From Siphonodentalium dalli (lineage: Eukaryota > Mollusca > Scaphopoda > Gadilida > Siphonodentaliidae), in NCBI GenBank assembly GCA_032622095.1, contig CP136065.1:243349474-243413473 (forward strand): a stretch of DNA of 64,000 bases, given 5' to 3'. The notes beneath the pieces are model-generated. The model was not told where the DNA came from, did no database searches, and was given only the letters and a program-made list of their open reading frames with translations. A program made the translations under genes and the position numbers. How positions within the stretch are numbered: the stretch's first letter is position 1; each line of letters begins with the position of its first letter. This document shows, one piece after another, positions 687-52,202 of the stretch.

Positions 687-743
687 GCAACAGCAGCATA
701 TGCTCGTTCAAAGACGTACTGGAGTGCTATTTATACCACAAAG
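687..743 (+). CDS. DEG/ENaC channel exon 1 of 4 in window (thumb cysteines)
   Basis: Internal exon of 57 bp encoding 18 full codons, starting NSSIC and containing CSFKDVLEC. It follows a good acceptor (pyrimidine-rich tract, TTCAG ending at 686). It is read with two bases completing an upstream codon and one base carried over, the only phase that joins the exon at 7174. The C-x7-C spacing equals that of the ASIC segment just before the CxCxxPC motif, which supports the frame and the direct junction. NSS is a possible N-glycosylation site. The donor (AAAG|GTTCGT) is weak compared with the other two donors, so the exact 3' edge is the least certain part. The exon before it was not found in bases 1-670. 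Confidence 0.72.
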
Positions 744-7173: not shown

Positions 7174-7324
7174 ACTATTTTACCACACATGTCGAACTTC
7201 AGAAGCGTTGTGAATGCAAATATCCATGTGAGACCGACGAATACACCGCAACATTATCAACTGCATACTTTCCTAATCAAGAAACGATGACTCTCCTCGA
7301 GCCATTAAATTTTACGAACATAAG
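7174..7324 (+). CDS. DEG/ENaC channel exon 2 of 4 (CxCxxPC motif)
   Basis: Internal exon of 151 bp, 49 full codons plus split codons at both ends. The acceptor is TTGTATTTTAG (ending 7173) and the donor AAG|GTAGGT is strong. It encodes the family signature CECKYPC followed by ETDEYTATLSTAYFP, matching the C-x-C-x-x-PC ... Y ... LS ... P block that closes the thumb and enters the last palm strand in ASICs, ENaCs and FMRFamide-gated channels. An NFT glycosylation sequon lies near its end. The longer open frame from ATG 7047 runs through intron and a palindromic element and is not the real start. A 438-bp palindromic MITE ends 77 bp upstream of the acceptor. Confidence 0.9.
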
Positions 7325-8508
7325 GTAGGTATGTGTGAGCTGGACTTCAAAATGGAATTTCTCAAAAACTGTCTGGAATTTCAATATAGTACAAGCGATT
7401 ACTGTTATACAATATGTCAGAACCATCAACCCGTTGGAAATTATAATCCAATTTACTATATTGTATGGTTTGAAAGATAGTTCTAATTTCCCGGTTTTCG
7501 TGTACCAAGCGAGTCTAAGTCAGTGGTTGAGTTTGCTATGTAATGCCCACCGGTTATCACCAGGTATCCTTTTACAGTGTTTATTGTTATTGTTAACCTC
7601 CTCAATATAGGAGAGCATATATACAATTGACAAGTATATACATGTTATATAAGTATGCATGCAAATGATATACTAATCACAATATTAATCACAATATTAT
7701 TGTACAGTGTTTACGCCATGTCACACTCATGCGATCGGATTCTGACATTTTCAAGTTTCAAGTGTTAGTGAGGTCAGTGATAATCTAACATAGAATTTAG
7801 AAATGGGAAGGCATACATAGAAGTGCCTGAATACCAGTTGCCCTTTTTAAAACCTGAATAGTAATATCACATGCGTGTGACCGAGCGAAATAAAACTTCC
7901 AAATAAAATATTCACTGGACATCAACGTTGAATATTGGAACACGAGAATGTCTGTCGTCATATTACCTTATTCAGTGAAATTAGACAAAGGTTTCAGTCA
8001 TCGAATTTAGAAAGTAGCATATATCACATGGAAATGGCCTATTTAAGAACTGGAAATAAAGAATAAAGAGTTATTACCTAGGTCTACTGAACCTGGTCAG
8101 AGTTTTCCGAATCAATTAAAACAAAGAGCTACATAATTATCGTGTATAAGCGACTCCGAGATATACATGCATTCTGTAGATTGCCATGTTTGTCAACATT
8201 AATTTTATCACCACGTTTCCCTATATATGCAGTCCGGAAATATATATTTAACACAAAAAAATTCAATTTGTTACGTCTGCTGGTTGGTTTTTACGAATTC
8301 AAGGGAAAATTGTCACGAAAACGACGTAAACATAATGATGGTTAAACATGCAATATATTCTCGCACAAATACGCACATAATCTACCTATAATGTGAAATA
8401 GGTACATAAAATGTGATTATTTTATTCTGAAATAAGCAGATAATGGAGTCATATCCGCTATTTTGTTTTACGGTTGGGGCCATAACAAAACACGTTACAG
8501 AGCGAACA
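7325..8508. other. Intron 2 start, nothing recognised
   Basis: Follows the GTAGGT donor. A 91-codon open frame (7335-7610) has no DEG/ENaC features and is not needed for the splice phase, so it is regarded as intronic. Confidence 0.45.
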
Positions 8509-8658
8509 CCCGAACAGTCGTGAGTTGGCTGATTTGTGTCATTGTCCGCACATAGTCTGCTTAGAATCGACACATTCTCATTTTCAGCACATTATCGACT
8601 AAAAATGAAGCTATTCTAAACAGATTATCTACCTAAAACCATATTATAAGCAGATAAT
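8509..8658 (-). repeat. Dispersed repeat, inverted relative to 32108-32243
   Basis: The reverse complement starts ATTATCTGCTTATAAT and ends with CTCACGACTGTTCGG; it aligns along its length to 32108-32243. Shared blocks include TTTAGGTAGAT and TGTGCGG-CAATG-CACAAAT. A further short relative lies at 8380-8450. The two copies flank exon 3 in opposite orientation. Confidence 0.8.
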
Positions 8659-9254
8659 TTCCGGGAGAACAGACTGGGTTTTGTGGTCATCCGAATTATA
8701 CATGTAGCCGGCTGTTCGTTCGCCTGCTTCCGGCCAACGGGGTTCAAACGGCTAAACGAACTTGGTTCGTTCGAACCCCAAAATGATGTATTTATAATTT
8801 GGTAAGAGCTATCCGACATGCATATAGGCGGAATATTTCTGAACAAGTTAGTCAATTAGAAATTGCAAATTTAGACCGTGAGCATAAACTCCAGAGCTCT
8901 CTTCGCTTTGAAACGTTTATTTTACTACAAAATTTTGGTAATTAAAACAAAGATAACGCAGTGGGTGAGAAGTTTTTAAATAGTTTAATATTAGCAGATG
9001 CAATAACATTTTGTCGCGCTGTGTTTCGTATCCGATTCCAGAATTGCAATCAATACAAATGTCGCAATATTTGATCGGGACCCGAATATGGTGATCGAGG
9101 TTGTATTTTCCGTTACTATAATGCGTCTTGTTGCGACATTCGATGCTCACGGAAAGATAGATCGGGATATTTATCAACCTAATTACATTCAGATACCGAG
9201 AATATATCGAAAGTAAATATTAAAAGGTGGCTACAGGTGGCTTTAAGGCTGGCT
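8659..9254. other. Intron 2 sequence, nothing recognised
   Basis: Contains an imperfect inverted pair GGGGTTC…GAACCCC near 8735-8780; otherwise unremarkable. Confidence 0.4.
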
Positions 9255-9570
9255 TTAAAGGCACGGATGACCTTCGCGGTGGTATGCTATTAAAATTGTC
9301 ACTCGCGTTAAAACTAACATATATCATATTAAAATATAGATATATTTTGTTATTATACCAATCATAGATATCGCTTAAATAGCTTGTTATTGCCATGTTC
9401 GTACGCTGTATTATGTAAACAAAAACCAGGTTCTGTAACATGTTTGGCTTTTGTTTGGTATAAGAACAAACTATGTCTATATTTTAATATTCTTTCTGTT
9501 TTATGGCGGTTTTAATGGATGTGACAATTTTAGCAGCAATACCCACCGCGAAGGTCATCCGTGCCTTTAA
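9255..9570. mobile_element. TIR element, TTAAAGGCACGG family, copy 1
   Basis: Inverted ends TTAAAGGCACGGATGACCTT (28 bp identical, continuing through CGCGGTGG) enclose about 260 bp. The inner arms also show inverted similarity (AAAATTGTCAC / GTGACAATTTT and ACCGCCAT-like blocks). TTAA at both termini suggests a TTAA target. A divergent relative lies at 38792-39410. Confidence 0.8.
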
Positions 9571-10211
9571 GGTCTCAAATTATTTTACGCCTCAAATTGT
9601 ACTTAGTAATTATCGCGATTGCTACATCTTGATTCGGTACTGGAAATTGTCATCACGTCCGAGTAAATGACGGTATCTATATGCATGTATACCATGTATT
9701 TTGTATCTACATTACCTATACTGTTCCTATTTTGAGAGTCAAATGAGCGATCTCCGTTTATGCTTGCGCGGAATGCGTTCACCATGTCGTGTATGTGCGC
9801 ATTATATAGAAAACTTTAAGTTGTGTATAAAGCCAATGTTTAAGTTTATTGGGTTTTGTTGCCACCCAACCTGATAGACCATTTCACGAGCTTGTCAGTT
9901 TTATGGATTGTGGAAATGCCTCAGAGAGGATACATTTCATTGGGAAACCACCTCACCTCGAATAAAGCTTCCCCAGATACACGAATGCAGTTACCCTCTG
10001 TGTGGCGTCATAAACCCGCGCTTGTCGAGACTCAAACTATCCCCCACGCTGGGCGGCTTATGTGGTATTGTGCCACGTCTCAAACCGACTGAGCAACCGA
10101 GGCCCTTGAAAACTAATGGCGATCCGAAGTGCTTTTTAATATATACCACATGTATGTATGTACATGTATAGCATTGGCTTGGACATGAATTGTGCTGTGA
10201 TGTTTATCACA
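9571..10211. other. Intron 2 sequence before the large satellite
   Basis: Two overlapping + strand frames (9856-10092, 9908-10171) read through a somewhat GC-richer patch; neither resembles a known family. No other structure seen. Confidence 0.4.
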
Positions 10212-13200
10212 TGGATGATTCCTCATGTATCTATCTATATATGCAAGGATGATTCCTCATGTATCTATCTATATATGCAAGGATGATTCCTCGTGTATCT
10301 ATTTATATATGCAGGGATGATTCCTCGTGTATCTATCTATATATGCAAGGATGATTCCTCATGTATCTATTTATATATGCAAGCATGATTCCTCATGTAT
10401 CTATCTATATATGCAGGGATGATTCCTCATGTATGTATCTATATATGCAAGGATGATTCCTCATGTATCTATCTATATATGCAAGGATGATTCCTCATGT
10501 ATCTATCTATATATGCAAGGATGATTCCTCATGTATCTATCTATATATGCAGGGATGATTCCTCATGTATCTATCTATATATGCAGGGATGATTCCTCAT
10601 GTATCTATCTATATATGCAGGGATGATTCCTCATGTATCTATTTATATATGCAAGGATGATTCCTCATGTATCTATCTATATATGCAAGGATGATTCCTC
10701 ATGTATCTATCTATATATGCAGGGATGATTCCTCATGTATCTATCTATATATCCAAGGATGATTCCTCATGTATCTATCTATATATGCAGGGATGATTCC
10801 TCATGCATCTATCTATATATGCAAGGATGATTCCTCATGCATCTATCTATATATGCGTGGATGATTCCTCATGTATCTATCTATATATGCAAGGATGATT
10901 CCTCATGTATCTATCTATATATGCAGGGATGATTCCTCATGTATCTATCTATATATGCAGGGATGATTCCTCATGTATCTATCTATATATGCAAGGATGA
11001 TTCCTCATGTATCTATATATATATGCAAGGATGATTCCTCATGTATCTATCTATATATGCAAGGATGATTCCTCATGTATCTATCTATATATGCAGGGAT
11101 GATCCCTCGTGTATCTATCTATATATGTAGGGATGATTCCTCATGTATCTATCTATATATGCAAGGATGATTCCTCATGTATATATCTATATATGCAGGG
11201 ATGATTCCTCGTGTATCTATCTATATATGCGTGGATGATTCCTCATGTATCTATCTATATATGCAAGGATGATTCCTCATGTATCTATCTATATATGCAG
11301 GGATGATTCCTCATGTATCTATCTATATATGCAGGGATGATTCCTCATGTATCTATCTATATATGCAGGGATGATTCCTCATGTATCTATCTATATATGC
11401 AGGGATGATTCCTCATGTATCTATCTATATATGCAAGGATGATTCCTCATGTATCTATATATATATGCAAGGATGATTCCTCATGTATCTATCTATATAT
11501 GCAAGGATGATTCCTCATGTATCTATCTATATATGCAGGGATGATTCCTCATGTATCTATCTATATATGCAAGGATGATTCCTCATGTATCTATCTATAT
11601 ATGCAAGGATGATTCCTCATGTATCTATCTATATATGCAGGGATGATTCCTCGTGTATCTATCTATATATGCAGGGATGATTCCTCATGTATCCATCTAT
11701 ATATGCAAGGATGATTCCTCATGTATCTATCTATATATGCAGGGATGATTCCTCATGTATCTATCTATATATGCAAGGATGATTCCTCATGTATCTATCT
11801 ATATATGCAGGGATGATTCCTCGTGTATCTATCTATATATGCAGGGATGATTCCTCATGTATCTATCTATATATGCAGGGATGATTCCTCATGTATCTAT
11901 CTATATATGCAAGGATGATTCCTCATGTATCTATCTATATATGCAGGAATGATTCCTCATGTATCTATCTATATATGCAAGGATGATTCCTCATGTATCT
12001 ATCTATATATGCAGGAATGATTCCTCGTGTATCTATCTATATATGCAAGGATGATTCCTCATGTATCTATCTATATATGCAGGGATGATTCCTCATGTAT
12101 CTATCTATATATGCAAGGATGATTCCTCATGTATCTATCTATATATGCAAGGATGATTCCTCATGTATCTATCTATATATGCAAGGATGATTCCTCATGT
12201 ATCTATCTATATATGCAGGGATGATTCCTCATGTATCTATTTATATATGAAGGGATGATTCCTCATGTATCTATCTATATATGCAAGGATGATTCCTCAT
12301 GTATCTATCTATATATGCAAGGATGATTCCTCATGTATCTATCTATATATGCAGGGATGATTCCTTATGTATATATCTATATATGCAAGGATGATTCCTC
12401 ATGTATCTATCTATTTATGAAGGGATGATTCCTTATGTATATATCTATATATCCATGGATGATTCCTCATGTATCTATCTATATATGCAGGGATGATTCC
12501 TCATGTATCTATCTATATATGCAGGGATGATTCCTCATGTATCTATTTATATATGCAAGGATGATTCCTCATGTATCTATCTATATATGCAGGGATGATT
12601 CCTCATGTATCTATTTATATATGAAGGGATGATTCCTCATGTATCTATTTATATATGAAGGGATGATTCCTCATGTATCTATTTATATATGCAAGGATGA
12701 TTCCTCATGTATCTATCTATATATGCAAGGATGATTCCTCATGTATCTATCTATATATGAAGGGATGATTCCTTATGTATATATCTATATATCCATGGAT
12801 GATTCCTCATGTATCTATCTATATATGCAGGGATGATTCCTCATGTATCTATTTATATATGAAGGGATGATTCCTCATGTATCTATCTATATATGCAAGG
12901 ATGATTCCTCATGTATCTATCTATATATGCAAGGGTGATTCCTCATGTATCTATCTATAGATGCATGGATGATTCCTCATACATATATCTATACATGCAA
13001 GGATGATTCCTAATGTATCTATCTATATATGCAGGGATGATTCCTCATGTATCTATCTATATATGCAAGGATGATTCCTCATGTATCTATTTATATATGA
13101 AGGGATGATTCCTCATGTATCTATCTATATATGCAAGGATGATTCCTCATGTATCTATCTATATATGCAAGGATGATTCCTCATGTATCTATCTATATAT

Positions 13201-16200
13201 GCAGGGATGATTCCGCATGTATCTATTTATATATGCAGGGATGATTCCTCATGTATATATCTATATATGCAGGGATGATTCCTCATGTATCTATTTATAT
13301 ATGCAAGGATGATTCCTCATGTATCTATCTATATATGCAGGATGATTCCTCATGTATATATTTATATATGCAAGGATGATTCCTCATGTATCTATCTATA
13401 TATGCAGGGATGATTCCTCATGTATCTATTTATATATGCAGGGATGATTCCTCATGTATCTATCTATATATGCAGGGATGATTCCTCATGTATCTATTTA
13501 TATATGCAGGGATGATTCCTCATGTATCTATCTATATATGCAGGGATGATTCCTCATGTATCTATTTATATATGCAAGGATGATTCCTCATGTATCTATC
13601 TATATATGAAGGGATGATTCCTCATGTATCTATTTATATATGCAAGGATGATTCCTCATGTATCTATCTATATATGCAAGGATGATTCCTCATGTATCTA
13701 TTTATATATGCAGGGATGATTCCTCATGTATCTATCTATATATGCAGGGATGATTCCTCATGTATCTATTTATATATGCAGGGATGATTCCTCATGTATC
13801 TATCTATATATGCAGGGATGATTCCTCATGTATCTATCTATATATGCAGGGATGATTCCTCATGTATCTATCTATATATGCAGGGATGATTCCTCATGTA
13901 TCTATCTATATATGCAGGGATGATTCCTCATGTATCTATTTATATATGCAAGGATGATTCCTCATGTATCTAGCTATATATGCAGGGATGATTCCTCATG
14001 TATCTATCTATATATGCAGGGATGATTCCTCATGTATCTATCTATATATGCAAGGATGATTCCTCATGTATCTATCTATATATGCAGGGATGATTCCTCA
14101 TGTATCTATTTATATATGCAGGGATGATTCCTCATGTATCTATCTATATATGCAGGGATGATTCCTCATGTATCTATTTATATATGCAGGGATGATTCCT
14201 CATGTATCTATCTATATATGCAGGGATGATTCCTCATGTATCTATTTATATATGCAAGGATGATTCCTCATGTATCTATCTATATATGCAGGGATGATTC
14301 CTCATGTATCTATTTATATATGCAAGGATGATTCCTCATGTATCTATCTATATATGCAAGGATGATTCCTCATGTATCTATTTATATATGCAGGGATGAT
14401 TCCTCATGTATCTATCTATATATGCAGGGATGATTCCTCATGTATCTATTTATATATGCAGGGATGATTCCTCATGTATCTATCTATATATGCAGGGATG
14501 ATTCCTCATGTATCTATCTATATATGCAGGGATGATTCCTCATGTATCTATCTATATATGCAGGGATGATTCCTCATGTATCTATCTATATATGCAGGGA
14601 TGATTCCTCATGTATCTATCTATATATGCAGGGATGATTCCTCATGTATCTATCTATATATGCAGGGATGATTCCTCATGTATCTATCTATATATGCAGG
14701 GATGATTCCTCATGTATCTATTTATATATGCAGGGATGATTCCTCATGTATCTATCTATATATGCAGGGATGATTCCTCATGTATCTATTTATATATGCA
14801 GGGATGATTCCTCATGTATCTATCTATATATGCAGGGATGATTCCTCATGTATCTATCTATATATGCAGGGATGATTACTCATGTATCTACCTATATATG
14901 CAGGGATGATTCCTCATGTATCTATCTATATATGCAGGGATGATTCCTCATGTATCTATTTATATATGCAAGGATGATTCCTCATGTGTCTATCTATATA
15001 TGCAGGGATGATTCCTCATGTATCTATTTATATATGCAAGGATGATTCCTCATGTATCTATCTGTATATGAAGGGATGATTCCTCATGTATCTATTTATA
15101 TATGCAAGGATGATTCCTCATGTATCTATCTATATATGCAAGGATGATTCCTCATGTATCTATTTATATATGCAGGGATGATTCCTCATGTATCTATCTA
15201 TATATGCAAGGATGATTCCTCATGTATCTATTTATATATGCAGGGATGATTCCTCATGTATCTATCTATATATGCAGGGATGATTCCTCATGTATCTATC
15301 TATATATGCAGGGATGATTCCTCATGTATCTATCTATATATGCAGGGATGATTCCTCATGTATCTATCTATATATGCAGGGATGATTCCTCATGTATCTA
15401 TTTATATATGCAAGGATGATTCCTCATGTATCTAGCTATATATGCAGGGATGATTCCTCATGTATCTATCTATATATGCAGGGATGATTCCTCATGTATC
15501 TATCTATATATGCAAGGATGATTCCTCATGTATCTATCTATATATGCAGGGATGATTCCTCATGTATCTATTTATATATGCAGGGATGATTCCTCATGTA
15601 TCTATCTATATATGCAGGGATGATTCCTCATGTATCTATTTATATATGCAGGGATGATTCCTCATGTATCTATCTATATATGCAGGGATGATTCCTCATG
15701 TATCTATTTATATATGCAAGGATGATTCCTCATGTATCTATCTATATATGCAGGGATGATTCCTCATGTATCTATTTATATATGCAAGGATGATTCCTCA
15801 TGTATCTATCTATATATGCAAGGATGATTCCTCATGTATCTAGTTATATATGCAGGGATGATTCCTCATGTATCTATCTATATATGCAGGGATGATTCCT
15901 CATGTATCTATTTATATATGCAGGGATGATTCCTCATGTATCTATCTATATATGCAGGGATGATTCCTCATGTATCTATCTATATATGCAGGGATGATTC
16001 CTCATGTATCTATCTATATATGCAGGGATGATTCCTCATGTATCTATCTATATATGCAGGGATGATTCCTCATGTATCTATCTATATATGCAGGGATGAT
16101 TCCTCATGTATCTATCTATATATGCAGGGATGATTCCTCATGTATCTATCTATATATGCAGGGATGATTCCTCATGTATCTATTTATATATGCAGGGATG

Positions 16201-19200
16201 ATTCCTCATGTATCTATTTATATATGCAAGGATGATTCCTCATGTATCTATTTATATATGCAGGGATGATTCCTCATGTATCTATCTATATATGCAGGGA
16301 TGATTCCGCATGTATCTATATATGCAAGGATGATTCCTGATGTATCTATCTATATATGCAGGGATGATTCCTCATGTATCTATTTATATATGCAAGGATG
16401 ATTCCTCATGTATCAATCTATATATGCAAGGATGATTCCGCATGTATCTATCTATATATGCAAGGATGATTCCTCATGTATCTATCTGTATATGCAGGGA
16501 TGATTCCTCATGTATCTATCTATATATGCAAGGATGATTCCTCATGTATCTATTTATATATGCAAGGATGATTCCTCATGTATCTATTTATATATGCAAG
16601 GATGATTCCTCATGTATCTATCTATATATGCAGGGATGATTCCTCATGTATCTATCTATATATGCAGGGATGATTCCTCATGTATCTATTTATATATGCA
16701 GGGATGATTCTTCATGTATCTATTTATATATGCAAGGATGATTCCTCATGTATCTATCTATATATGCAGGGATGATTCCTCATGTATCTATCTATATATG
16801 CAGGGATGATTCCTCATGTATCTATCTATATATGCAGGGATGATTCCTCATGTATCTATCTATATATGCAGGGATGATTCCTCATGTATCTATTTATATA
16901 TGCAGGGATGATTCCTCATGTATCTATCTATATATGCAGGGATGATTCCTCATGTATCTATTTATATATGCAGGGATGATTCCTCATGTATCTATCTATA
17001 TATGCAGGGATGATTCCTCATGTATCTATTTATATATGCAAGGATGATTCCTCATGTATCTATCTATATATGCAGGGATGATTCCTCATGTATCTATTTA
17101 TATATGCAAGGATGATTCCTCATGTATCTATCTATATATGCAAGGATGATTCCTCATGTATCTATTTATATATGCAGGGATGATTCCTCATGTATCTATC
17201 TATATATGCAGGGATGATTCCTCATGTATCTATTTATATATGCAGGGATGATTCCTCATGTATCTATCTATATATGCAGGGATGATTCCTCATGTATCTA
17301 TCTATATATGCAGGGATGATTCCTCATGTATCTATCTATATATGCAGGGATGATTCCTCATGTATCTATCTATATATGCAGGGATGATTCCTCATGTATC
17401 TATCTATATATGCAGGGATGATTCCTCATGTATCTATCTATATATGCAGGGATGATTCCTCATGTATCTATCTATATATGCAGGGATGATTCCTCATGTA
17501 TCTATTTATATATGCAGGGATGATTCCTCATGTATCTATTTATATATGCAAGGATGATTCCTCATGTATCTATTTATATATGCAGGGATGATTCCTCATG
17601 TATCTATCTATATATGCAGGGATGATTCCGCATGTATCTATATATGCAAGGATGATTCCTCATGTATCTATCTATATATGCAGGGATGATTCCTCATGTA
17701 TCTATCTATATATGCAGGGATGATTCCTCATGTATCTATTTATATATGCAAGGATGATTCCTCATGTATCTATCTATATATGAAAGGATGATTCCTCGTG
17801 TATCTATCTATATATGCAAGGATGATTCCTGATGTATATATCTATATATGCAGGGATGATTCCTCATGTATCTATTTATATATGCAAGGATGATTCCTCA
17901 TGTATCAATCTATATATGCAAGGATGATTCCGCATGTATCTATCTATATATGCAAGGATGATTCCTCATGTATCTATCTGTATATGCAGGGATGATTCCT
18001 CATGTATCTATCTATATATGCAAGGATGATTCCTCATGTATCTATTTATATATGCAAGGATGATTCCTCATGTATCTATTTATATATGCAAGGATGATTC
18101 CTCATGTATCTATCTATATATGCAGGGATGATTCCTCATGTATCTATCTATATATGCAGGGATGATTCCTCATGTATCTATTTATATATGCAGGGATGAT
18201 TCTTCATGTATCTATTTATATATGCAAGGATGATTCCTCATGTATCTATCTATATATGCAGGGATGATTCCTCATGTATCTATCTATATATGCAGGGATG
18301 ATTCCTCATGTATCTATCTATATATGCAGGGATGATTCCTCATGTATCTATCTATATATGCAGGGATGATTCCTCATGTATCTATCTATATATGCAGGGA
18401 TGATTCCTCATGTATCTATCTATATATGCAGGGATGATTCCTCATGTATCTATCTATATATGCAGGGATTATTCCTCATGTATCTATCTATATATGCAGG
18501 GATGATTCCCCATGTATCTATCTATATATGCAGGGATGATTCCTCATGTATCTATTTATATATGCAGGGATGATTCCTCATGTATCTATCTATATATGCA
18601 GGGATGATTCCTCATGTATCTATCTATATATGCAGGGATGATTCCTCATGAATCTATTTATATATGCAGGGATGATTCCTCATGTATCTATTTATATATG
18701 CAGGGATGATTCCTCATGTATCTATTTATATATGCAGGGATGATTCCTCATGTATATATCTATATATGCAGGGATGATTCCTCATGTATCTATCTATATA
18801 TGCAGGGATGATTCCTCATGTATCTATCTATATATGCAGGGATGATTCCTCATGTATCTATCTATATATGCAGGGATGATTCCTCATGTATCTATTTATA
18901 TATGCAAGGATGATTCCTCATGTATCTATCTATATATGCAGGGATGATTCCTCATGTATCTATTTATATATGCAAGGATGATTCCTCATGTATCTATCTA
19001 TATATGCAAGGATGATTCCTCATGTATCTATTTATATATGCAGGGATGATTCCTCATGTATCTATCTATATATGCAGGGATGATTCCTCATGTATCTATT
19101 TATATATGCAAGGATGATTCCTCATGTATCTAGCTATATATGCAGGGATGATTCCTCATGTATCTATCTATATATGCAGGGATGATTCCTCATGTATCTA

Positions 19201-22200
19201 TCTATATATGCAAGGATGATTCCTCATGTATCTATCTATATATGCAGGGATGATTCCTCATGTATCTATTTATATATGCAGGGATGATTCCTCATGTATC
19301 TATCTATATATGCAGGGATGATTCCTCATGTATCTATTTATATATGCAGGGATGATTCCTCATGTATCTATCTATATATACAGGGATGATTCCTCATGTA
19401 TCTATTTATATATGCAAGGATGATTCCTCATGTATCTATCTATATATGCAGGGATGATTCCTCATGTATCTATTTATATATGCAAGGATGATTCCTCATG
19501 TATCTATCTATATATGCAAGGATGATTCCTCATGTATCTATTTATATATGCAGGGATGATTCCTCATGTATCTATCTATATATGCAGGGATGATTCCTCA
19601 TGTATCTATTTATATATGCAGGGATGATTCCTCATGTATCTATCTATATATGCAGGGATGATTCCTCATGTATCTATCTATATATGCAGGGATGATTCCT
19701 CATGTATCTATCTATATATGCAGGGATGATTCCTCATGTATCTATCTATATATGCAGGGATGATTCCTCATGTATCTATCTATATATGCAGGGATGATTC
19801 CTCATGTATCTATCTATATATGCAGGGATGATTCCTCATGTATCTATCTATATATGCAGGGATGATTCCTCATGTATCTATTTATATATGCAGGGATGAT
19901 TCCTCATGTATCTATCTATATATGCAGGGATGATTCCTCATGTATCTATTTATATATGCAGGGATGATTCCTCATGTATCTATCTATATATGCAGGGATG
20001 ATTCCTCATGTATCTATCTATATATGCAGGGATGATTCCTCATGTATCTATCTATATATGCAGGGATGATTCCTCATGTATCTATCTATATATGCAGGGA
20101 TGATTCCTCATGTATCTATTTATATATGCAAGGATGATTCCTCATGTGTCTATCTATATATGCAGGGATGATTCCTCATGTATCTATTTATATATGCAAG
20201 GATGATTCCTCATGTATCTATCTGTATATGAAGGGATGATTCCTCATGTATCTATTTATATATGCAAGGATGATTCCTCATGTATCTATCTATATATGCA
20301 AGGATGATTCCTCATGTATCTATTTATATATGCAGGGATGATTCCTCATGTATCTATCTATATATGCAAGGATGATTCCTCATGTATCTATTTATATATG
20401 CAGGGATGATTCCTCATGTATCTATCTATATATGCAGGGATGATTCCTCATGTATCTATCTATATATGCAGGGATGATTCCTCATGTATCTATCTATATA
20501 TGCAGGGATGATTCCTCATGTATCTATCTATATATGCAGGGATGATTCCTCATGTATCTATTTATATATGCAAGGATGATTCCTCATGTATCTAGCTATA
20601 TATGCAGGGATGATTCCTCATGTATCTATCTATATATGCAGGGATGATTCCTCATGTATCTATCTATATATGCAAGGATGATTCCTCATGTATCTATCTA
20701 TATATGCAGGGATGATTCCTCATGTATCTATTTATATATGCAGGGATGATTCCTCATGTATCTATCTATATATGCAGGGATGATTCCTCATGTATCTATT
20801 TATATATGCAGGGATGATTCCTCATGTATCTATCTATATATGCAGGGATGATTCCTCATGTATCTATTTATATATGCAAGGATGATTCCTCATGTATCTA
20901 TCTATATATGCAGGGATGATTCCTCATGTATCTATTTATATATGCAAGGATGATTCCTCATGTATCTATCTATATATGCAAGGATGATTCCTCATGTATC
21001 TATTTATATATGCAGGGATGATTCCTCATGTATCTATCTATATATGCAGGGATGATTCCTCATGTATCTATTTATATATGCAGGGATGATTCCTCATGTA
21101 TCTATCTATATATGCAGGGATGATTCCTCATGTATCTATCTATATATGCAGGGATGATTCCTCATGTATCTATCTATATATGCAGGGATGATTCCTCATG
21201 TATCTATCTATATATGCAGGGATGATTCCTCATGTATCTATCTATATATGCAGGGATGATTCCTCATGTATCTATCTATATATGCAGGGATGATTCCTCA
21301 TGTATCTATCTATATATGCAGGGATGATTCCTCATGTATCTATTTATATATGCAGGGATGATTCCTCATGTATCTATTTATATATGCAAGGATGATTCCT
21401 CATGTATCTATTTATATATGCAGGGATGATTCCTCATGTATCTATCTATATATGCAGGGATGATTCCGCATGTATCTATATATGCAAGGATGATTCCTCA
21501 TGTATCTATCTATATATGCAGGGATGATTCCTCATGTATCTATCTATATATGCAGGGATGATTCCTCATGTATCTATTTATATATGCAAGGATGATTCCT
21601 CATGTATCTATCTATATATGAAAGGATGATTCCTCGTGTATCTATCTATATATGCAAGGATGATTCCTGATGTATCTATCTATATATGCAGGGATGATTC
21701 CTCATGTATCTATTTATATATGCAAGGATGATTCCTCATGTATCAATCTATATATGCAAGGATGATTCCGCATGTATCTATCTATATATGCAAGGATGAT
21801 TCCTCATGTATCTATCTGTATATGCAGGGATGATTCCTCATGTATCTATCTATATATGCAAGGATGATTCCTCATGTATCTATTTATATATGCAAGGATG
21901 ATTCCTCATGTATCTATTTATATATGCAAGGATGATTCCTCATGTATCTATCTATATATGCAGGGATGATTCCTCATGTATCTATCTATATATGCAGGGA
22001 TGATTCCTCATGTATCTATTTATATATGCAGGGATGATTCTTCATGTATCTATTTATATATGCAAGGATGATTCCTCATGTATCTATCTATATATGCAGG
22101 GATGATTCCTCATGTATCTATCTATATATGCAGGGATGATTCCTCATGTATCTATCTATATATGCAGGGATGATTCCTCATGTATCTATCTATATATGCA

Positions 22201-24174
22201 GGGATGATTCCTCATGTATCTATCTATATATGCAGGGATGATTCCTCATGTATCTATCTATATATGCAGGGATGATTCCTCATGTATCTATCTATATATG
22301 CAGGGATTATTCCTCATGTATCTATCTATATATGCAGGGATGATTCCCCATGTATCTATCTATATATGCAGGGATGATTCCTCATGTATCTATTTATATA
22401 TGCAGGGATGATTCCTCATGTATCTATCTATATATGCAGGGATGATTCCTCATGTATCTATCTATATATGCAGGGATGATTCCTCATGAATCTATTTATA
22501 TATGCAGGGATGATTCCTCATGTATCTATTTATATATGCAGGGATGATTCCTCATGTATCTATTTATATATGCAGGGATGATTCCTCATGTATATATCTA
22601 TATATGCAGGGATGATTCCTCATGTATCTATCTATATATGCAGGGATGATTCCTCATGTATCTATCTATATATGCAGGGATGATTCCTCATGTATCTATC
22701 TATATATGCAGGGATGATTCCTCATGTATCTATTTATATATGCAAGGATGATTCCTCATGTATCTATCTATATATGCAGGGATGATTCCTCATGTATCTA
22801 TCTATATATGCAGGGATGATTCCTCATGTATCTATTTATATATGCAAGGATGATTCCTCATGTATCTATCTATATATGCAGGGATGATTCCTCATGTATC
22901 TATCTATATATGCAGGGATGATTCCTCATGTATCTATCTATATATGCAGGGATGATTCCTCATATATCTATTTATATATGCAAGGATGATTCCTCATGTA
23001 TCTATCTATATATGCAGGGATGATTCCTCGTGTATCTATTTATATATGCAGGGATGATTCCTCATGTATCTATCTATATATGCAGGGATGATTCCTCATG
23101 TATCTATCTATATATGCAGGGATGATTCCTCATGTATCTATTTATATATGCAAGGATGATTCCTCATGTATCTATCTATATATGCAGGGATGATTCCTCA
23201 TGTATCTATCTATATATGCAGGGATGATTCCTCATGTATCTATTTATATATGCAAGGATGATTCCTCATGTATCTATCTATATATGCAGGAATGATTCCT
23301 CATGTATCTATCTATATATGCAGGGATGATTCCTCATGTATCTATCTATATATGCAGGGATGATTCCTCATGTATCTATCTATATATGCAGGGATGATTC
23401 CTCATGTATCTATTTATATATGCAAGGATGATTCCTCATGTATCTATCTATATATGCAGGGATGATTCCTCATGTATCTATCTATATATGCAGGGATGAT
23501 TCCTCATGTATCTATCTATATATGCAGGGATGATTCCTCATGTATCTATCTATATATGCAGGGATGATTCCTCATGTATCTATCTATATATGCAGGGATG
23601 ATTCCTCATGTATCTATTTATATATGCAAGGATGATTCCTCATGTATCTATCTATATATGCAGGGATGATTCCTCATGTATCTATCTATATATGCAGGGA
23701 TGGTTCCTCATGTATCTATTTATATATGCAGGGTTGATTCCTCATGTATCTATTTATATATGCAAGGATTATTCCTCATGTATCTATCTATATATGCAGG
23801 GATGATTCCTCATGTATCTATTTATATATGCAAGGATGATTCCTCATGTATCTATCTATATATGCAGGGATGATTCCTCATGTATCTATCTATATATGCA
23901 GGGATGATTCCTCATGTATCTATTTATATATGCAAGGATGATTCCTCATGTATCTATCTATATATGCAGGGATGATTCCTCATGTATCTATCTATATATG
24001 CAAGGATGATTCCTCATGTATCTATCTATATATTCAGGGATGATTCCTCACGTATCTATCTATATATGCAGGGATGATTCCTCATGTATCTATCTATATA
24101 TGCAGGGATGATTCCTCATGTATCTATTTATATATGCAGGGATGATTCCTCATGTATCTATCTATTCATGCATG
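10212..24174 (+). repeat. 34-bp satellite array, about 410 units, intronic
   Basis: Uninterrupted tandem array of 34-bp units. The unit contains GATGATTCCTCATGTATC followed by a CTATCTATATATGC stretch. Two positions alternate widely (CTATC/CTATT, GCAGG/GCAAGG). A few units lack 4 bp, at 16308, 17630 and 21468. The unit is not a multiple of three and the consensus has a TGA every three units, so the 65-codon frames in it are not genes. It fills most of intron 2 of the channel gene. Edges are clean: the first unit follows TTTATCACAT and the last decays near CATGGATTATGCG. Confidence 0.97.
13873..22801 (+). repeat. Higher-order duplications inside the 34-bp satellite
   Basis: Rare variant units recur at fixed offsets. 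TAGCTATATA at 13971 and 15433 recurs at 19131 and 20593 (offset 5160). The GTGTC variant near 14987 and TCTGTATATGAAGG near 15061 recur at the same offset. From 17630 the match continues at offset 3838 (CCCCATG and CATGAATC variants near 18500 and 18650 recur near 22340 and 22487). A third offset, 1492, links the TTCTTCATG variant at 16709 to 18201. 5160 equals 152 units of 34 minus two 4-bp deletions. This points to recent block duplications of kilobase size rather than unit-by-unit slippage. Confidence 0.85.
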
Positions 24175-25541
24175 GATTATGCGTTAATAAAACTGTTGGT
24201 TAGAGTGGAAAATCCACATGACGGTCATTAGTTCACCTTCAGGTTTCCTCTCTTTGTCGATAAGACTTTTATAAACCGATGAGTCATTCTGGTTTATAGT
24301 TGGATCTCTAATAACACACATCAATAGTTTCTGATAGAAGGGTCCGATGGGAGTACAGTTGATGACAATCAGGTAATGGATCATGAATTTGTTATTAACT
24401 AATGGGCAATAATTATTAATAGTCCAACACGCTACCTGATGAAGCAATGTCGTACCATTTTATGTGTTAAGGTAGGTCAATAGTGGATGATTTATATTCT
24501 CTCCAGTTATTGTTATTTACCTACACACTGGTTCTGATGTAGATCGGTTGATTTCAAGCCGGATTTAACAATTCAATGTATATACTGAAACTGGATTTTT
24601 ATAAGAATAATTATGAGGCCCTTAAATATAGCCCAGATTGTTTGATACACTCGTCTGGTATGACCCCAATTATTTCTCGCGCTGAATTATAAAGCCAGAT
24701 TCTTCATCCCGATTTAACCCTTCCATTACTGGAGCTTCCTGAAATATTGCGATAACCTTATGCCAATGTATTTTAATATAAAGTTTATGAAAATAACTAA
24801 TTTGGTCAATATTTAGTCTAGGTAAACTACAGAACCACATAAATACATAATGTAACGTATATATATGACTCTTGGCAGACTGGTCAAGATTATTCACTAC
24901 TATATTATGGACAGCACAACGGAATGGTCCTCATTACTTATGGTATGCGAATGTGAACAATCATACTTTTGATTCTCGTGCCACATACATGTATGTGCTT
25001 TCAATTGCTGCGAAAACGTCATTGGTCATTGGGCTATAATATATACTGTTTTCGGGTATACGTGTATAGAGAGAGAACATAACGGTGTGCTGTTTTGTGA
25101 TTTCGGATTACAGGGCGAATATGGCAATAGTATAATTTATTGCCAAGTCATAAATTAACATGAAACAGGCAAAACAAAGAACATAATTATATACATAATA
25201 TACAGAAGGAATAGTTGCGTTCCCATCACGCGCATCATCACAACACATGCATGAATGCGTCAGCTGTTATATACTGTTATATACATATAATATTTATAAA
25301 TGTATGCATACATCGCACTGATGTCAGCCCCTCAACTCAGTGAGTAGAGTGGAGAATATACGTTCTCCCTAATCAGCGACAGTACTATAGTATACGTGAC
25401 ATGTTTGTATTGTCCCACACATCAGTGTCGCTTTAACAATGACACCTCTGAAATCGCACAAACAATAAAACCTTTTTGTGATAGTGTGTGGAAGCCTGTA
25501 CATAAGTAACATCGTATTCAGATAACAGAAACACATAACTA
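24175..25541. other. Intron 2 spacer, nothing recognised
   Basis: AT-rich; minus-strand frames at 24184-24447 and 24670-24897 are unremarkable. CTCAGTGAGTAGAGTGG near 25335 resembles a tRNA A-box, but no B-box or cloverleaf follows. Confidence 0.4.
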
Positions 25542-25615
25542 ACAAGAAAACCATAGTCAGAAATGGTAACGCCACCAAGATCGTATTATTAGCCATAAAT
25601 ATAAATAATAATACA
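25542..25615. repeat. Dispersed repeat, copy 2
   Basis: Same-orientation partner of 4397-4470, sharing GTCAGAAATGGTAACGCC and ATTATTAGCCATAAATATAA. Confidence 0.75.
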
Positions 25616-25794
25616 ATTATTCTATAAACTAGCTTTCAAATTTTATGCGGGAAATTTGCGTACTTCCATATTTCAAGTTTTCCCGTTTCTCGTGGCATAC
25701 ATTACTTTCATCAAACTGTCTTCTTTATTACACAAGCTGATAGGCCCGACTTCACCCGGGCTGTTTCCCATCTGCTTTCCGGTGAAAGGTGCGA

Positions 25795-26305
25795 TTTGAC
25801 CTTCAATTGACTATTTCGAAAGTCAAGGTCAGGTCAGGGTCATGATTTGTCCAGTCCAAAACACCCCCACCCGTAGAAAACTACCCATAGGTATCAAATT
25901 TCGTCGAAATCCGTCCGTTTTACCCAACTTGACCTTTAATTAACAATTTTGAAGGTCAAGGTAAGGTCAGAGTCATGATTTGACCCGTCCAAAACACCCC
26001 CCCCCCCCCCCCGACAAAAGTACCCATAGGTATCAAATTTCGTCGAAATCTATCCGTTTTATCCGAGTTGACCTTTGATTGGCCATATTGAAGGTCAAGG
26101 TCAGGCCGAGGTCACGATTTGACCCGTTCAAAACTCTCCTCGGACCAAAGTATCCCTAGGTATCAAATTTCGCCGAAATTTGTCCGTTTTACCCAAATTG
26201 ACCTTGCATTGACAGTTTTAATGGTCAAGGTCAGGTCGGGGTCACGATTTGACCCGTTCAAAACACTTCCCGGACACAAATACCCATAAGTATCAAATTA
26301 CGTTG
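25795..26305 (+). repeat. ~130-bp tandem repeat, four copies
   Basis: Each copy starts TTGACCTT (25796, 25929, 26068, 26198), then GGTCAAGGTCAGG, GATTTGACCCGT, an AAAACAC-C-rich stretch and TATCAAATTTCGTCGAAATC. Copy 2 has a run of about 15 C. The type is common in molluscan and other spiralian DNA (recollection, not a search). Confidence 0.88.
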
Positions 26306-26755
26306 AATTCTATGGAAAGCCGAGGAGGACATGTTGGTTGCTAATTGCTAGATATACGACGCGGTATTTTGAAGGTGTTTCAAACTAGGAGATAGAAGTA
26401 TTCTGCCTTTCAAATGGTGATGAATTATAGTAGTTTATTCAAATTTGATGACATAAATTGTTATTAAAACCGTATATACTATAAAAAATTAATGACTCGA
26501 AAATTAAGTGGGCCTTTAAACAAAGTCACAATTGCATTTAGGCTCATCTCATACTCGTCCATTCAGCGATATTCTACTGCGCAGTTTGTTATAGCCTCCA
26601 GTATTTATTGAGCGTTATACCCCCAACTGTTATAATTCGCCTTTAGCAGGCGTACTCTTGCCTCAGATTATTGAGATATTAGGTCACACATAATCACATT
26701 AAATCGCATCGTAACATAGCAATTGTGTGGGCTCCTTGGCGTGAATATGTAATGA

Positions 26756-27545
26756 GAAATAAGGTCATACGTAATGACATTAAACTCAAGAAAACCCTCG
26801 AAAACAAAACAAAATCACATTTAATGTTTTACGTTATTTCCTTCATAAAAAGAATCTTCGTGATAATGAACCCTCTCGTTACTTTAGAATATAGAATTAA
26901 CCTTAAAATAAAAAAAATCTTTGGAACACAGAACCTTCGGAATAACGAACCTTCTGATTGGTGAACCTTCGGAATAGCGAACATTCAGAGAAATTTCGGA
27001 ATAGTGGACCTTCGGGATAGTGAACCTTCGGAATAGAGACATGCCCCCCAATATTCATATTATATGCCCAGAGTTCAAAGGTATGGACCCATAAAATTCT
27101 AAACTTGGCCCTTAAAATATTGAACTCCAAATTGGAGCACACACAGAACACCACTTAAGTCAACTGAACCTATGTCATGTCCCAATGCGGGAGGGTCCAT
27201 ATATACCACAACATTCATAGTATATGCCAAGAATTCAAAGGTATGGGCCCACGTAATGACATAAAATCTCAAGAAAACCAGCGAAAACAAAACAAAATCA
27301 CATTTAATGTTCTAAGTTAAGTTATTTCCTCCTGTATCTGTATCGGTGTGCGCGCATGATCAGTTCGGATGTGAGCGCACACTCCATATAAAGAATCTTT
27401 GTGAAAATGAACCCTCTCAAATTAGTCTCAATACTTTAAAATATAGAATTAACCTAAAAATAACAAAAACCTTCGGAATAGAGAACCTTCGGAATAGCGG
27501 ACCTTCGGGATAGCAAACCTTCATAATAGAAGCATGTCCCCACAA
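26756..27545 (+). repeat. Two-copy tandem duplication with internal GAACCTTCGGAATAG minisatellite
   Basis: The block from about 26771 recurs from 27253: GTAATGACAT, AAAACAAAACAAAATCACAT, ATAGAATTAACC, then several ~15-bp CCTTCGGAATAG units. Copy 2 carries about 65 extra bases (around 27330-27395) with a GTGTGCGC / GCGCACAC inverted pair. Between the copies, 27054-27080 also recurs at 27213. Confidence 0.8.
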
Positions 27546-28752
27546 TTACACCGGTGACGTAAACACATGTGCCAATCTTAGTTGTACTCTCGTAATTATC
27601 GGTACGATGAAACGGTGACGGAATCTGACGAGGTTTGCCGAATGTACAATCACCCAGTGAATTATCGATCGACCATGCGATATCAAAAAACCAAAAGCTA
27701 GAAACACCACACTACGGTGGCGTAATAAACTCTACATCAAGAGCGTTCATATGCAACTCGCTTGGAACCCAATAGTTTTTAGTGCTTTATATATCATGCA
27801 TAAGCATATAATTATATATGTATATGGTAAACTCGGTACCCAATATACCGGAGGACGGGGGTGCTTTCCTGCTTATTTTATTTCAACTTTCTGACTGATG
27901 CTGAAACTGCCTATTCAGAAGGGTGCTCTGTCAGCTTTCGTTGGGCAGGACATGGTACCTCTTATCGTGGACTCAAGTGGCATTGGGCGTCCCCCTTTAC
28001 TCGTATATGTGGGTCATACAAAGCGGTGTCGATTAACGAGTACTTGACACAGTTTATCGCCCTGTAACTTTCCGAAATAACAAAACGCCGCATGGTTATC
28101 CCCATTCTAATTTTATTATAAAACGTTATTTAAAAAAAAGACTCACATACCTTGTAGTTAACGAGTTTTGCAGTCGTAGAAAACACTCAGCCAATTTACG
28201 ACTTTCATTTAATGTGCTGGATTTATATAGTGTCCCTCAATTAGCACCGCTCTTTGGTGAAAATACAGATAGAGATAAAAATTATCACGCACATAAATTG
28301 GAAATAAATATGCACACCAATTAGCTTCTGCCTATAATAATTAGTGGTGTCTTTGTCAGATTTGTAATCATATTTTCCGACAGCGATATGACCCAGATCC
28401 GCCGATTTATTTGACTCCGAACTTGAACATAATGGGAAATTGTTTTCTTATTGAAATGTGTATTTCACGCCATCTCTGGTTCGTTTCAAGAAATTTTGAT
28501 AAAATTAATGGCAATATGGTAATGTATATATGGAACTGCATTGCATTATAAGCTGTTTCTTAATTATTTTTTTTATAGTGTGATAAGCGTTATATAACTA
28601 TTAAGCGTTTGAGGCTAAATGGAGTCACGAATTAAAAATAAACACTCTGACGAGAATAGAAAGATAATTGCATTTGCTAATTACTTGTACTAAAGGATAT
28701 TTTTGGCTCAGTGCAAATCCTTCACATTGTATCGACATTGTGCGCAATGGCT
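27546..28752. other. Intron 2 spacer before the 10-bp array
   Basis: Contains the weak transposase-like remnant at 27861-28067; otherwise AT-rich with nothing recognised. Confidence 0.4.
27861..28067 (+). pseudogene. Possible decayed transposase/Fanzor-type C-terminal fragment
   Basis: Open frame of 68 codons. The segment GHGTSYRGLKWHWASPF, followed about a dozen residues later by AVSINEYLT, loosely recalls the last catalytic and zinc-ribbon approach of OrfB/Fanzor-like and some eukaryotic transposon proteins (G..S..RG…P… then VxxxEYxTS before Cys pairs). The expected CxxC does not follow in frame. This is pattern memory only and could be wrong; the frame is a fragment either way. Confidence 0.22.
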
Positions 28753-31700
28753 GCCAAACTAATACCAAACTAATGCCAAACTAATACCAAACTAATACCA
28801 AACTAATACCAAACTAATACCAAACTAATACCAAACTAATACCAAACTAATACCAAACTAATACCAAACTAATACCAAACTAATGCCAAACTAATGCCAA
28901 ACTAATACCAAACTAATGCTAAACTAATGCTAAACTAATACCAAACTAATACCAAACTAATACCAAACTAATACCAAACTAATACCAAACTAATGCCAAA
29001 CTAATACCAAACTAATGCCAAACTAATGCCAAACTAATACCAAACTAATACCAAACTAATACCAAACTAATACCAAACTAATGCCAAACTAATACCAAAC
29101 TAATACCAAACTAATGCCAAACTAATGCCAAACTAATACCAAACTAATGCCAAACTAATACCAAACTAATACCAAACTAATACCAAACTAATACCAAACT
29201 AATACCAAACTAATGCCAAACTAATACCAAACTAATACCAAACTAATACCAAACTAATACCAAACTAATACCAAACTAATACCAAACTAATACCAAACTA
29301 ATACCAAACTAATGCCAAACTAATACCAAACTAATACCAAACTAATACCAAACTAATGCCAAACTAATACCAAACTAATGCCAAACTAATACCAAACTAA
29401 TACCAAACTAATACCAAACTAATGCCAAACTAATACCAAACTAATACCAAACTAATACCAAACTAATACCAAACTAATACCAAACTAATACCAAACTAAT
29501 GCCAAACTAATACCAAACTAATACCAAACTAATACCAAACTAATGCCAAACTAATACCAAACTAATACCAAACTAATACCAAACTAATACCAAACTAATA
29601 CCAAACTAATACCAAACTAATACCAAACTAATGCCAAACTAATACCAAACTAATACCAAACTAATACCAAACTAATGCCAAACTAATACCAAACTAATAC
29701 CAAACTAATGCCAAACTAATACCAAACTAATACCAAACTAATACCAACTAATGCCAAACTAATACCAAACTAATACCAAACTAATACCAAACTAATACCA
29801 AACTAATGCCAAACTAATACCAAACTAATACCAAACTAATACCAAACTAATGCCAAACTAATACCAAACTAATACCAAACTAATGCCAAACTAATACCAA
29901 ACTAATACCAAACTAATACCAAACTAATGCCAAACTAATACCAAACTAATACCAAACTAATGCCAAACTAATACCAAACTAATACCAAACTAATACCAAA
30001 CTAATACCAAACTAATGCCAAACTAATACCAAACTAATACCAAACTAATACCAAACTAATACCAAACTAATGCCAAACTAATACCAAACTAATACCAAAC
30101 TAATGCCAAACTAATGCCAAACTAATACCAAACTAATGCCAAACTAATACCAAACTAATACCAAACTAATACCAAACTAATGCCAAACTAATACCAAACT
30201 AATACCAAACTAATGCCAAACTAATACCAAACTAATACCAAACTAATACCAAACTAATACCAAACTAATGCCAAACTAATACCAAACTAATACCAAACTA
30301 ATGCCAAACTAATGCCAAACTAATACCAAACTAATGCCAAACTAATACCAAACTAATACCAAACTAATGCCAAACTAATACCAAACTAATACCAAACTAA
30401 TGCCAAACTAATACCAAACTAATGCCAAACTAATACCAAACTAATACCAAACTAATGCCAAACTAATACCAAACTAATACCAAACTAATGCCAAACTAAT
30501 ACCAAACTAATACCAAACTAATACCAAACTAATGCCAAACTAATACCAAACTAATACCAAACTAATACCAAACTAATACCAAACTTCTACCAAACTAATG
30601 CTAAACTAATGCTAAACTAATACCAAACTAATACCAAACTAATACCAAACTAATGCCAAACTAATGCCAAACTAATACCAAACTAATGCCAAACTAATAC
30701 CAAACTTCTACCAAACTAATACCAAACTAATACCAAACTAATGCCAAACTAATGCCCAACTAATACCAAACTAATACCAAACTAATACCAAACTAATGCC
30801 AAACTAATGCCAAACTAATACCAAACTAATACCAAACTAATACCAAACTAATACCAAACTAATACCAAACTAATACCAAACTAATACCAAACTAATGCCA
30901 AACTAATACCAAACTAATGCCAAACTAATACCAAACTAATACCAAACTAATGCCAAACTAATACCAAACTAATACCAAACTAATGCCAAACTAATACCAA
31001 ACTAATACCAAACTAATACCAAACTAATGCCAAACTAATACCAAACTAATACCAAACTAATACCAAACTAATACCAAACTTCTACCAAACTAATGCTAAA
31101 CTAATGCTAAACTAATACCAAACTAATACCAAACTAATACCAAACTAATGCCAAACTAATGCCAAACTAATACCAAACTAATGCCAAACTAATACCAAAC
31201 TTCTACCAAACTAATACCAAACTAATACCAAACTAATGCCAAACTAATGCCCAACTAATACCAAACTAATACCAAACTAATACCAAACTAATGCCAAACT
31301 AATGCCAAACTAATACCAAACTAATACCAAACTAATACCAAACTAATACCAAACTAATGCCAAACTAATGCCAAACTAATGCCAAACTAATGCCAAACTA
31401 ATACCAAACTAATGCCAAACTAATGCCAAACTAATACCAAACTAATGCCAAACTAATGCCAAACTAATGCCAAACTAATGCCAAACTAATGCCAAACTAA
31501 TGCCAAACTAATACCAAACTAATACCAAACTAATACCAAACTAATACCAAACTAATACCAAACTAATGCCAAACTAATACCAAACTAATACCAAACTAAT
31601 ACCAAACTAATGCCAAACTAATGCCAAACTAATGCCCAACTAATACCAAACTAATGCCAAACTAATGCCAAACTAATACCAAACTAATACCAAACTAATA

Positions 31701-31952
31701 CCAAACTAATGCCAAACTAATGCCAAACTAATACCAAACTAATACCAAACTAATACCAAACTAATGCCAAACTAATGCCAAACTAATACCAAACTAATAC
31801 CAAACTAATACCAAACTAATACCAAACTAATGCCAAACTAATGCCAAACTAATACCAAACTAATGCTAAACTAATACCAAACTAATGCCAAACTAATGCC
31901 AAACTAATACCAAACTAATACCAAACTAATACCAAACTAATACCAAACTTCT
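28753..31952 (+). repeat. 10-bp minisatellite, about 320 units, abutting a 3' splice site
   Basis: Units of ACCAAACTAAT type (10-bp period) run for 3.2 kb. Nearly all variation is a single A/G switch (ATACC or ATGCC), with rare GCTAA, GCCCAAC and CTTCTACC variants and one 9-bp unit. A block with two CTTCTACC variants (30584 and 30705) recurs 495 bp later (31079 and 31200). The array ends in CCAAACTTCTACGCG, 27 bp upstream of exon 3. Every unit contains CTAAT, which fits the metazoan branch-point consensus. Confidence 0.97.
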
Positions 31953-31979
31953 ACGCGTCCGTATTTATTCTGCTTCCAG
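31937..31979 (+). promoter_or_regulatory. Candidate branch point and 3' splice site of exon 3
   Basis: The last CTAAT of the 10-bp array (31937-31941, candidate branch A at 31940) lies 39 nt before the AG at 31978-31979. A moderately pyrimidine-rich tract is between them. The distance fits usual branch-to-acceptor spacing. That the repeat supplies the branch point is inference. Confidence 0.45.
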
Positions 31980-32071
31980 GGAAAATTTCATTGAATTGCG
32001 TGTATATTTCGAAGCTCTAACGACAACCAGTGTTGAACAAGTGCCAGAGTTCACGTTATCGGACATTGCGG
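31980..32071 (+). CDS. DEG/ENaC channel exon 3 of 4 (last palm strand)
   Basis: Internal exon of 92 bp: one base completing an Arg codon, 30 codons, and one base carried over. It encodes ENFIELRVYFEAL, then SVEQVPEFTLSDIA, equivalent to the ASIC segment with ENILVLDIFFEALNYE that leads from the palm to TM2. The usual Asn-Tyr after EAL is replaced by Thr residues. The acceptor (TTATTCTGCTTCCAG) follows directly on the 3' edge of a 3.2-kb array of 10-bp repeats; the donor CGG|GTGAGT is strong. The exon lies between two mutually inverted dispersed repeats (8509-8658 and 32108-32243), the latter 36 bp past its end. Confidence 0.92.
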
Positions 32072-51986: not shown

Positions 51987-52202
51987 GCAGAAGTTGGAGA
52001 ATTCATAATCATTTCATGTGTAAAATGTAGAGTGCAAGCATGAGGAGGAGAGAAAAGTGAGAGTAAGGTTTCATTATTGTTCACATGTTTAATGTATGTT
52101 TGTTGGGAGATCAGATCTCAATAAATAATATTATGGCCATTCCGTCTTAGTCATAATTTCCAAATGGAGTGATTCTAATTAATAGTGAAGGGCATAGTAA
52201 TT
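51987..52202 (+). repeat. 216-bp direct repeat A, copy 2
   Basis: Second copy of repeat A; together the copies bracket 387 bp that begin with the 231-bp repeat. Confidence 0.93.

Follow-up and report, generated by a model that had tools for sequence, protein, structure and literature searches.

An 11-bp ACTAAT minisatellite next to a 3′ splice site of a DEG/ENaC gene, present as 291 and as five units in two gene copies of Siphonodentalium dalli that are probably alleles

RESULTS

A DEG/ENaC gene with a confirmed exon e

The window, that is, the whole 64,000-nucleotide stretch of contig CP136065.1 that was analyzed, carries exons c to f of a gene whose six coding exons found splice in phase into an open frame ending in a stop (Table 1). 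The joined frame matches the Pfam ASC family (PF00858) with an E value of 2.3e-76 over profile positions 22 to 455 of 455. This ASC domain of nearly full length identifies the gene as a member of the DEG/ENaC family, and the best solved structural relatives of the encoded protein are ASIC1 (acid-sensing ion channel 1). A run of 5,000 N (C5:243344474-243349473) stops exactly at the window start, within intron b-c of this gene copy.

Exon e, the exon that follows the array described below, is well supported. A search of the genome with its peptide matched 14 places, and an AG is found at the homologous position in all eight of these loci that were fetched, the window's own included. Together with the AG at 31978-31979, the in-phase frame, and the PF00858 match, this bears out the first-pass annotation, made from the letters of the window alone, which had proposed a real DEG/ENaC exon spliced at 31979. 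A spurious exon e is ruled out by the homologous loci, the in-phase open frame, and the Pfam match.

Two other parts of the window stand out in composition or copy number. The segment 41001-43000 has a strong G-over-C skew of 0.47-0.48 and contains 65-bp and 374-bp tandem repeats. At ~52199-52576 lies a high-copy repeat of ~376 bp, 96 to 99% identical to many genomic copies; it may be absent from the second gene copy (copy A, below), where the listed match starts just past the repeat.

TABLE 1 Positions, in the window, of the gene parts and repeats discussed in the text
Feature	Position	Strand	Basis
Exon c (a 5,000-N run separates it from exons a and b, which precede the window)	687..743	+	
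Exon d	7174..7324	+	
Intron d-e, 24,655 bp (copy A: 9,688 bp)	7325..31979	+	
Second array in intron d-e, 34-bp unit, 411 copies (copy A: 4.0)	10213..24177	+	
Minisatellite array, 291 units, 286 with ACTAAT	28754..31953	+	TRF and phased count
Array segment duplicated exactly at 30865-31358	30370..30863	+	Letter comparison
Nearest CTAAT adenosine, candidate branch point, −40	31940..31940	+	
Final unit, variant CCAAACTTCTA, common to copy A	31943..31953	+	Sequence; copy C match aligned by eye
Nonrepeat intron end, 26 bp, CGCGTCCGTATTTATTCTGCTTCCAG; TTTAT adenosine at −13 (TTTAC in copy C)	31954..31979	+	
Exon e, 92 bp, DEG/ENaC gene; in phase with its neighbors, exons d and f	31980..32071	+	
Exon f, last coding exon found, carries the stop codon	39904..40052	+	

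Anatomy of the array

Intron d-e ends in a minisatellite, a head-to-tail array with units in the ~10- to 60-bp range. Its 11-bp unit is CCAAACTAATR; phasing by script gave 291 units on the forward strand, and Tandem Repeats Finder (TRF) reported 28754-31949, period 11, and 290.6 copies. The phased units fall into a few classes, namely, 184 CCAAACTAATA, 91 CCAAACTAATG, 7 CTAAACTAATR, 3 CCCAACTAATA, and 5 CCAAACTTCTA, with one further unit missing a single base. ACTAAT is present in 286 of the 291 units, nearly all sites being 11 nt apart, and TTCTA replaces CTAAT in the other five, the final unit among them. The first-pass annotation had described about 320 units of about 10 bp, a length and a number that TRF and the phasing both correct. 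Its statement that every unit holds CTAAT is true of most units but fails for the five TTCTA units, including the last. It was right that the array runs up to the 3′ splice site, since the array ends 26 bp before the exon, and that the last CTAAT adenosine lies 39 nt from the AG; this adenosine is at position −40, with 39 intron nucleotides after it. Further CTAAT adenosines of the array follow upstream at −51, −62, −73, −84, and −95.

Neither AG nor GT occurs anywhere inside the array (28754-31953), and the AG-free zone upstream of the exon e splice site starts at 28710 and is 3,267 nt long. Within the array, the 494 bp at 30370-30863 recur letter for letter at an offset of 495 bp. Such an exact copy is what block amplification would leave, and we read it as a recent block duplication.

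Specificity of the array and of its motif

An exact three-unit pattern matched the genome 251 times on the forward strand and not once on the reverse strand, and the window alone accounts for all 251 matches. This search misses shorter or more diverged arrays, for example that of copy A; the array in its present form is, on this pattern, unique to the locus. An origin from a dispersed satellite or transposon is rejected as regards close copies, as there is no exact three-unit match outside the window.

Chance does not account for the array itself, but the likeness of its motif to a branch site counts for little as evidence, because yUnAy is common both in random 11-mers and in other tandem arrays. 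Among random circular 11-mers at the local base composition, 25% hold yUnAy on a given strand and 3% hold CTAAY. In tandem arrays sampled from 300 kb, yUnAy was found on the forward strand in 20 of 47 and CTRAY in 2 of 47, the window array counted and some of the 47 coming from related loci and thus not independent. Apart from the five TTCTA units, ACTAAT shows no substitutions in the 291 units, and other unit positions vary. This invariance could be constraint; it rests on about four independent changes, too few for a test. The invariance and the rarity of CTAAY and CTRAY in these samples weigh against the plain expansion that we favor below.

RNA structure was also considered. In the array RNA, no pairs were predicted over the final 174 nt, and the segment 31780-32071 folds worse than its shuffled versions (z of 2.09; 198 of 200 shuffles equal or better it). 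A structured RNA was rejected on these two results.

A nearly identical gene copy has five units

A second copy of the gene (copy A) lies on the same strand, upstream of the window copy (copy B) by 163 kb at exon a, which was matched at C5:243171606, to 191 kb at exon e. The two coding sequences differ at 8 of 1,296 nt, corresponding to 4 amino acids, and the colinear blocks of the two copies are 83 to 98% identical. At its intron end, copy A has the same 3′ splice site and five eleven-bp units (counted by eye; TRF gave 4.4 copies), and the CTAAY adenosines at −40, −51, −62, and −73 are common to both copies. In the one assembly analyzed, the two gene copies, probably alleles, have 5 and 291 units at this intron end. 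The 34-bp array in the same intron shows a parallel contrast, with 4.0 copies in copy A (L020:4966-5101) versus 411 in the window.

Two other features were seen around copy A. Its intron d-e contains a 10-bp array, AAGGTGGCTA, of 40.9 copies (L020:2387-2801), for which TRF found no counterpart in the window. The segments C5:243225000-243227999 and C5:243245639-243246839, some 20 kb from each other, have matches of 99 to 100% identity at shared sites on C1, C2, C4, and C8, which suggests that the contig of copy A contains a mobile element longer than 20 kb.

An older relative, copy C (C5:142806035 onward), has the homologous exon and AG, and its intron ends in TTTAC-TCTGCTTCCAG, where copies A and B read TTTAT-TCTGCTTCCAG. 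The last 200 nt of the copy C intron contain no CTAAY and no such array. In the five other homologous introns that were fetched, the distance to the nearest CTAAY varies by locus (−54, −70, −449, or beyond). Since copy C is without the array and the nearest CTAAY of the other introns lies at varied distances, the array would most simply have arisen after the split from copy C, and its expansion would most simply be a change in copy B. AAACTTC of the final unit also precedes the equivalent splice site in copy C, as aligned by eye, and the final unit variant CCAAACTTCTA is probably an old edge sequence.

Are copies A and B alleles or tandem paralogues?

Several observations bear on the relationship of the two copies. 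First, a run of 100 N is found between them, at C5:243256874. Second, the sequence on either side of this gap resembles the far flanks of the two copies. The sequence 3 to 5 kb before the gap matches C5:243418279-243420060, downstream of B, at 96 to 98%, and a piece 13 kb past the gap has a 1.8-kb match of 99% identity to C5:243072615-243074405, which lies upstream of A. The latter piece also matches C8:134652563-134655211 at 94 to 96% and is thus not single-copy, for which reason we set the likelihood of alleles lower. The sequence directly past the gap has no match upstream of A, a DNA search with it returning only itself and repeats, and two DNA searches with sequence between copies A and B likewise gave self and repeat matches only. 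A further point against alleles is the 5,000-N run of copy B that ends at the window start. The flank matches would be equally expected after a tandem block duplication, which leaves the gap and the pattern of the CCT genes, described next, as the only evidence for alleles.

CCT genes are expected to be single-copy. In a search with PF00118, the matches form nine intron-bearing loci, and four of the nine have exons duplicated 37 to 169 kb apart on one strand; the duplication is incomplete in three of these four, as judged from matches at E 0.001. Runs of 100 N stand beside incomplete CCT copies in both of the two places examined, C7:133441996 and C1:68390614, and no further 100-N runs were seen in the other fetched loci or in the window. 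Exons duplicated nearby in this way are expected where two haplotypes stay uncollapsed, and the pattern suggests that the assembly holds uncollapsed haplotypes. One published study reportedly describes false duplications of this kind in assemblies. Genes expected to occur once form nearby same-strand pairs, signs of uncollapsed haplotypes, at C7:133433378/133489158, C1:54104851/54270895, C1:68370935/68539505, C8:26613240/26650366, and C1:268979450/269215728.

On this evidence, copies A and B are probably two alleles misassembled in tandem. That they are instead true tandem paralogues, with the array expanded after a recent gene duplication, seems unlikely to us. The DEG/ENaC family does have local clusters, the 83 to 98% identity of the colinear blocks is low for alleles, and a block duplication would also account for the flank matches; however, a scaffold gap sits in the very junction between the copies, 100-N runs accompany two of the four duplicated CCT loci (both that were examined), and the coding sequences are nearly the same.

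Branch-like motifs near exon e and in other introns

Metazoan branch points fit yUnAy with the adenosine ~18 to 45 nt before the exon, and a single array unit, that with its adenosine at −40, lies in this range; the next is at −51. Two CTAAY sites are found within 60 nt of exon e and six within 100 nt. For comparison, 30 CCT-family loci were cut out, of which 28 (L027-L054) were used; without six second copies and L031, which has no usable 3′ splice site, 21 other introns remained. Their splice sites were predicted by a simple score, and a stricter score cut kept 13 of 22 CCT-family loci. CTRAY occurred at −15 to −44 in 3 of the 21 introns, compared to 4, 4, 2, 1, 1, and 6 of 21 in six 30-nt bins upstream, so there was no enrichment at branch distance. 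For yUnAy, the count was 15 of 21, compared to 15, 12, 15, 9, 9, and 9 upstream, which is not clearly an enrichment. In this small sample with predicted splice sites, the species gives no sign of a strong CTRAY rule.

DISCUSSION

As a sequence, the array looks like an ordinary minisatellite expansion. We think it probable that a minisatellite specific to this locus, lying where a DEG/ENaC intron ends, expanded in copy B from about five initial units. Slippage or unequal exchange within the locus would have brought these to 291 units, and the other copy, most likely an allele misplaced in tandem by the assembly, would have kept the short form. Recognition of exon e would depend on the exon's own AG and short tract of pyrimidines; the branch adenosine would be that of a unit near the end of the array (−40 or −51) or some other adenosine close by, and the units farther upstream would be too distant to matter. 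The expansion may have been tolerated because the unit is without AG, GT, and predicted RNA structure and would add no cryptic splice site. The proximal units are alike in the short and the long copies, and the added upstream units should therefore not alter branch choice. The sequences, the five-unit form, the shared proximal sites, and the open frame of the gene are observed; branch use, neutrality, and the direction of the change are inferred.

A more active role for the array is conceivable. It might bind a QKI-like protein or SF1 in cis and, as a local sink, repress exon e or slow the removal of the intron. Repression or a sink effect of the array is possible, but we hold this explanation to be decidedly unlikely. 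In RNA, the ACUAAU of the unit fits both the QKI core, NACUAAY, and the branch motif bound by SF1, and a UAAY half-site comes 11 nt on in the next unit. QKI binds the bipartite sequence NACUAAY plus UAAY (PMC2697983), and by motif match the array, with its 286 ACUAAU units and the next UAAU mostly 11 nt away, has the sequence of a QKI response element. In human RAI14 intron 10, ACUAAC sites at −34 and −43 can each be used as a branch site, and when both are present they bind QKI and splicing is repressed (PMC13004596). SF1 binds the UACUAAC repeats of Gomafu, and in vitro these repeats inhibit splicing (PMC3116199). The genome also has matches to domains of such proteins, one to SF1-HH and two to STAR_dimer, the latter of equal score and 236 kb apart, perhaps another haplotype pair. 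On the other hand, the five-unit copy already has dual sites at −40 and −51 so that the expansion need not change the arrangement, and the final unit and the intron end of copy C are without the motif. If the array did act in this way, its effect would be repression and not buffering, and the five-unit copy might show it already. The fuller claim, that the 291-unit ACUAAU array is a cis platform for QKI/SF1-type proteins and that its allelic length (5 versus 291 in one individual) alters exon e inclusion or intron removal, is in our judgment very unlikely. If true, minisatellite expansion would have produced in nature a counterpart of the RAI14 dual-site switch whose action is graded by length.

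The idea in the first-pass annotation of an intron end with hundreds of equivalent branch sites did not survive comparison with the other copies. It would have many units serve as interchangeable branch points, with array length buffering or tuning exon e splicing. The last units do stand at −40, −51, and onward, and a branch formed at any unit would meet this AG first because the 3,267 nt upstream are free of AG. However, the five-unit copy A keeps the same proximal sites, copy C has the homologous exon without a CTAAY in the last 200 nt of its intron, only two CTAAY sites lie within 60 nt of exon e, and the 21 other introns show no excess of CTRAY at branch distance. Branch points hundreds of nucleotides from the AG are, moreover, unusual. 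As the units within branch range are alike in both copies, the extra sites probably do not matter, and we regard the idea as highly improbable. Least probable of all is that the 291-unit length is an assembly error. Long arrays can be missized, and false duplications are probably among other faults of this assembly, but the array has ordered variants and an exact internal duplication, and at 3.2 kb it should be within the span of long reads.

The minisatellite expansion that we favor has partial parallels. The Drosophila genes kl-3 and kl-5 are said to have large, satellite-bearing introns and are, like the gene in the window, protein-coding genes in which tandem arrays have lengthened an intron; unlike those arrays of megabases, the one in the window measures kilobases, has ACUAAU in its unit, and ends at a splice site. 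The minisatellite of the human gene 6-16 (G1P3/IFI6) reportedly consists of splice donor sites, and there, too, the unit is a splicing signal, a donor site instead of the branch-like site of the window. Closest in arrangement is RAI14 intron 10, with tandem ACUAAY just before the 3′ splice site (−34/−43, compared to −40/−51 in the window); it has two sites and demonstrated QKI repression, whereas the 286 sites here are known from sequence alone (PMC13004596). Gomafu/MIAT shares the repetition of a branch-like motif in RNA but is a noncoding RNA with seven repeats, for which SF1 binding has been shown (PMC3116199). In canine LHX3 intron 5, the copy number of a seven-bp repeat affects splicing; the effect is attributed to a 75-bp intron becoming too short, a situation unlike that of the 24.7-kb intron in the window (PMC3223203). 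An intron ending in an array of branch motifs was not found in the literature searched, to which subscription papers mostly did not belong, so that its absence is unproven.

For this species, the suggestion that uncollapsed haplotypes are present means that gene counts from the assembly need care. The value of the locus lies in a near-identical gene pair (8 of 1,296 nt) with the same splice site and the same proximal branch candidates but 5 versus 291 units. If the two copies are alleles, RNA-seq of heterozygotes would compare both forms in one cell and give a clean test of what extra branch-like or QKI-like sites do.
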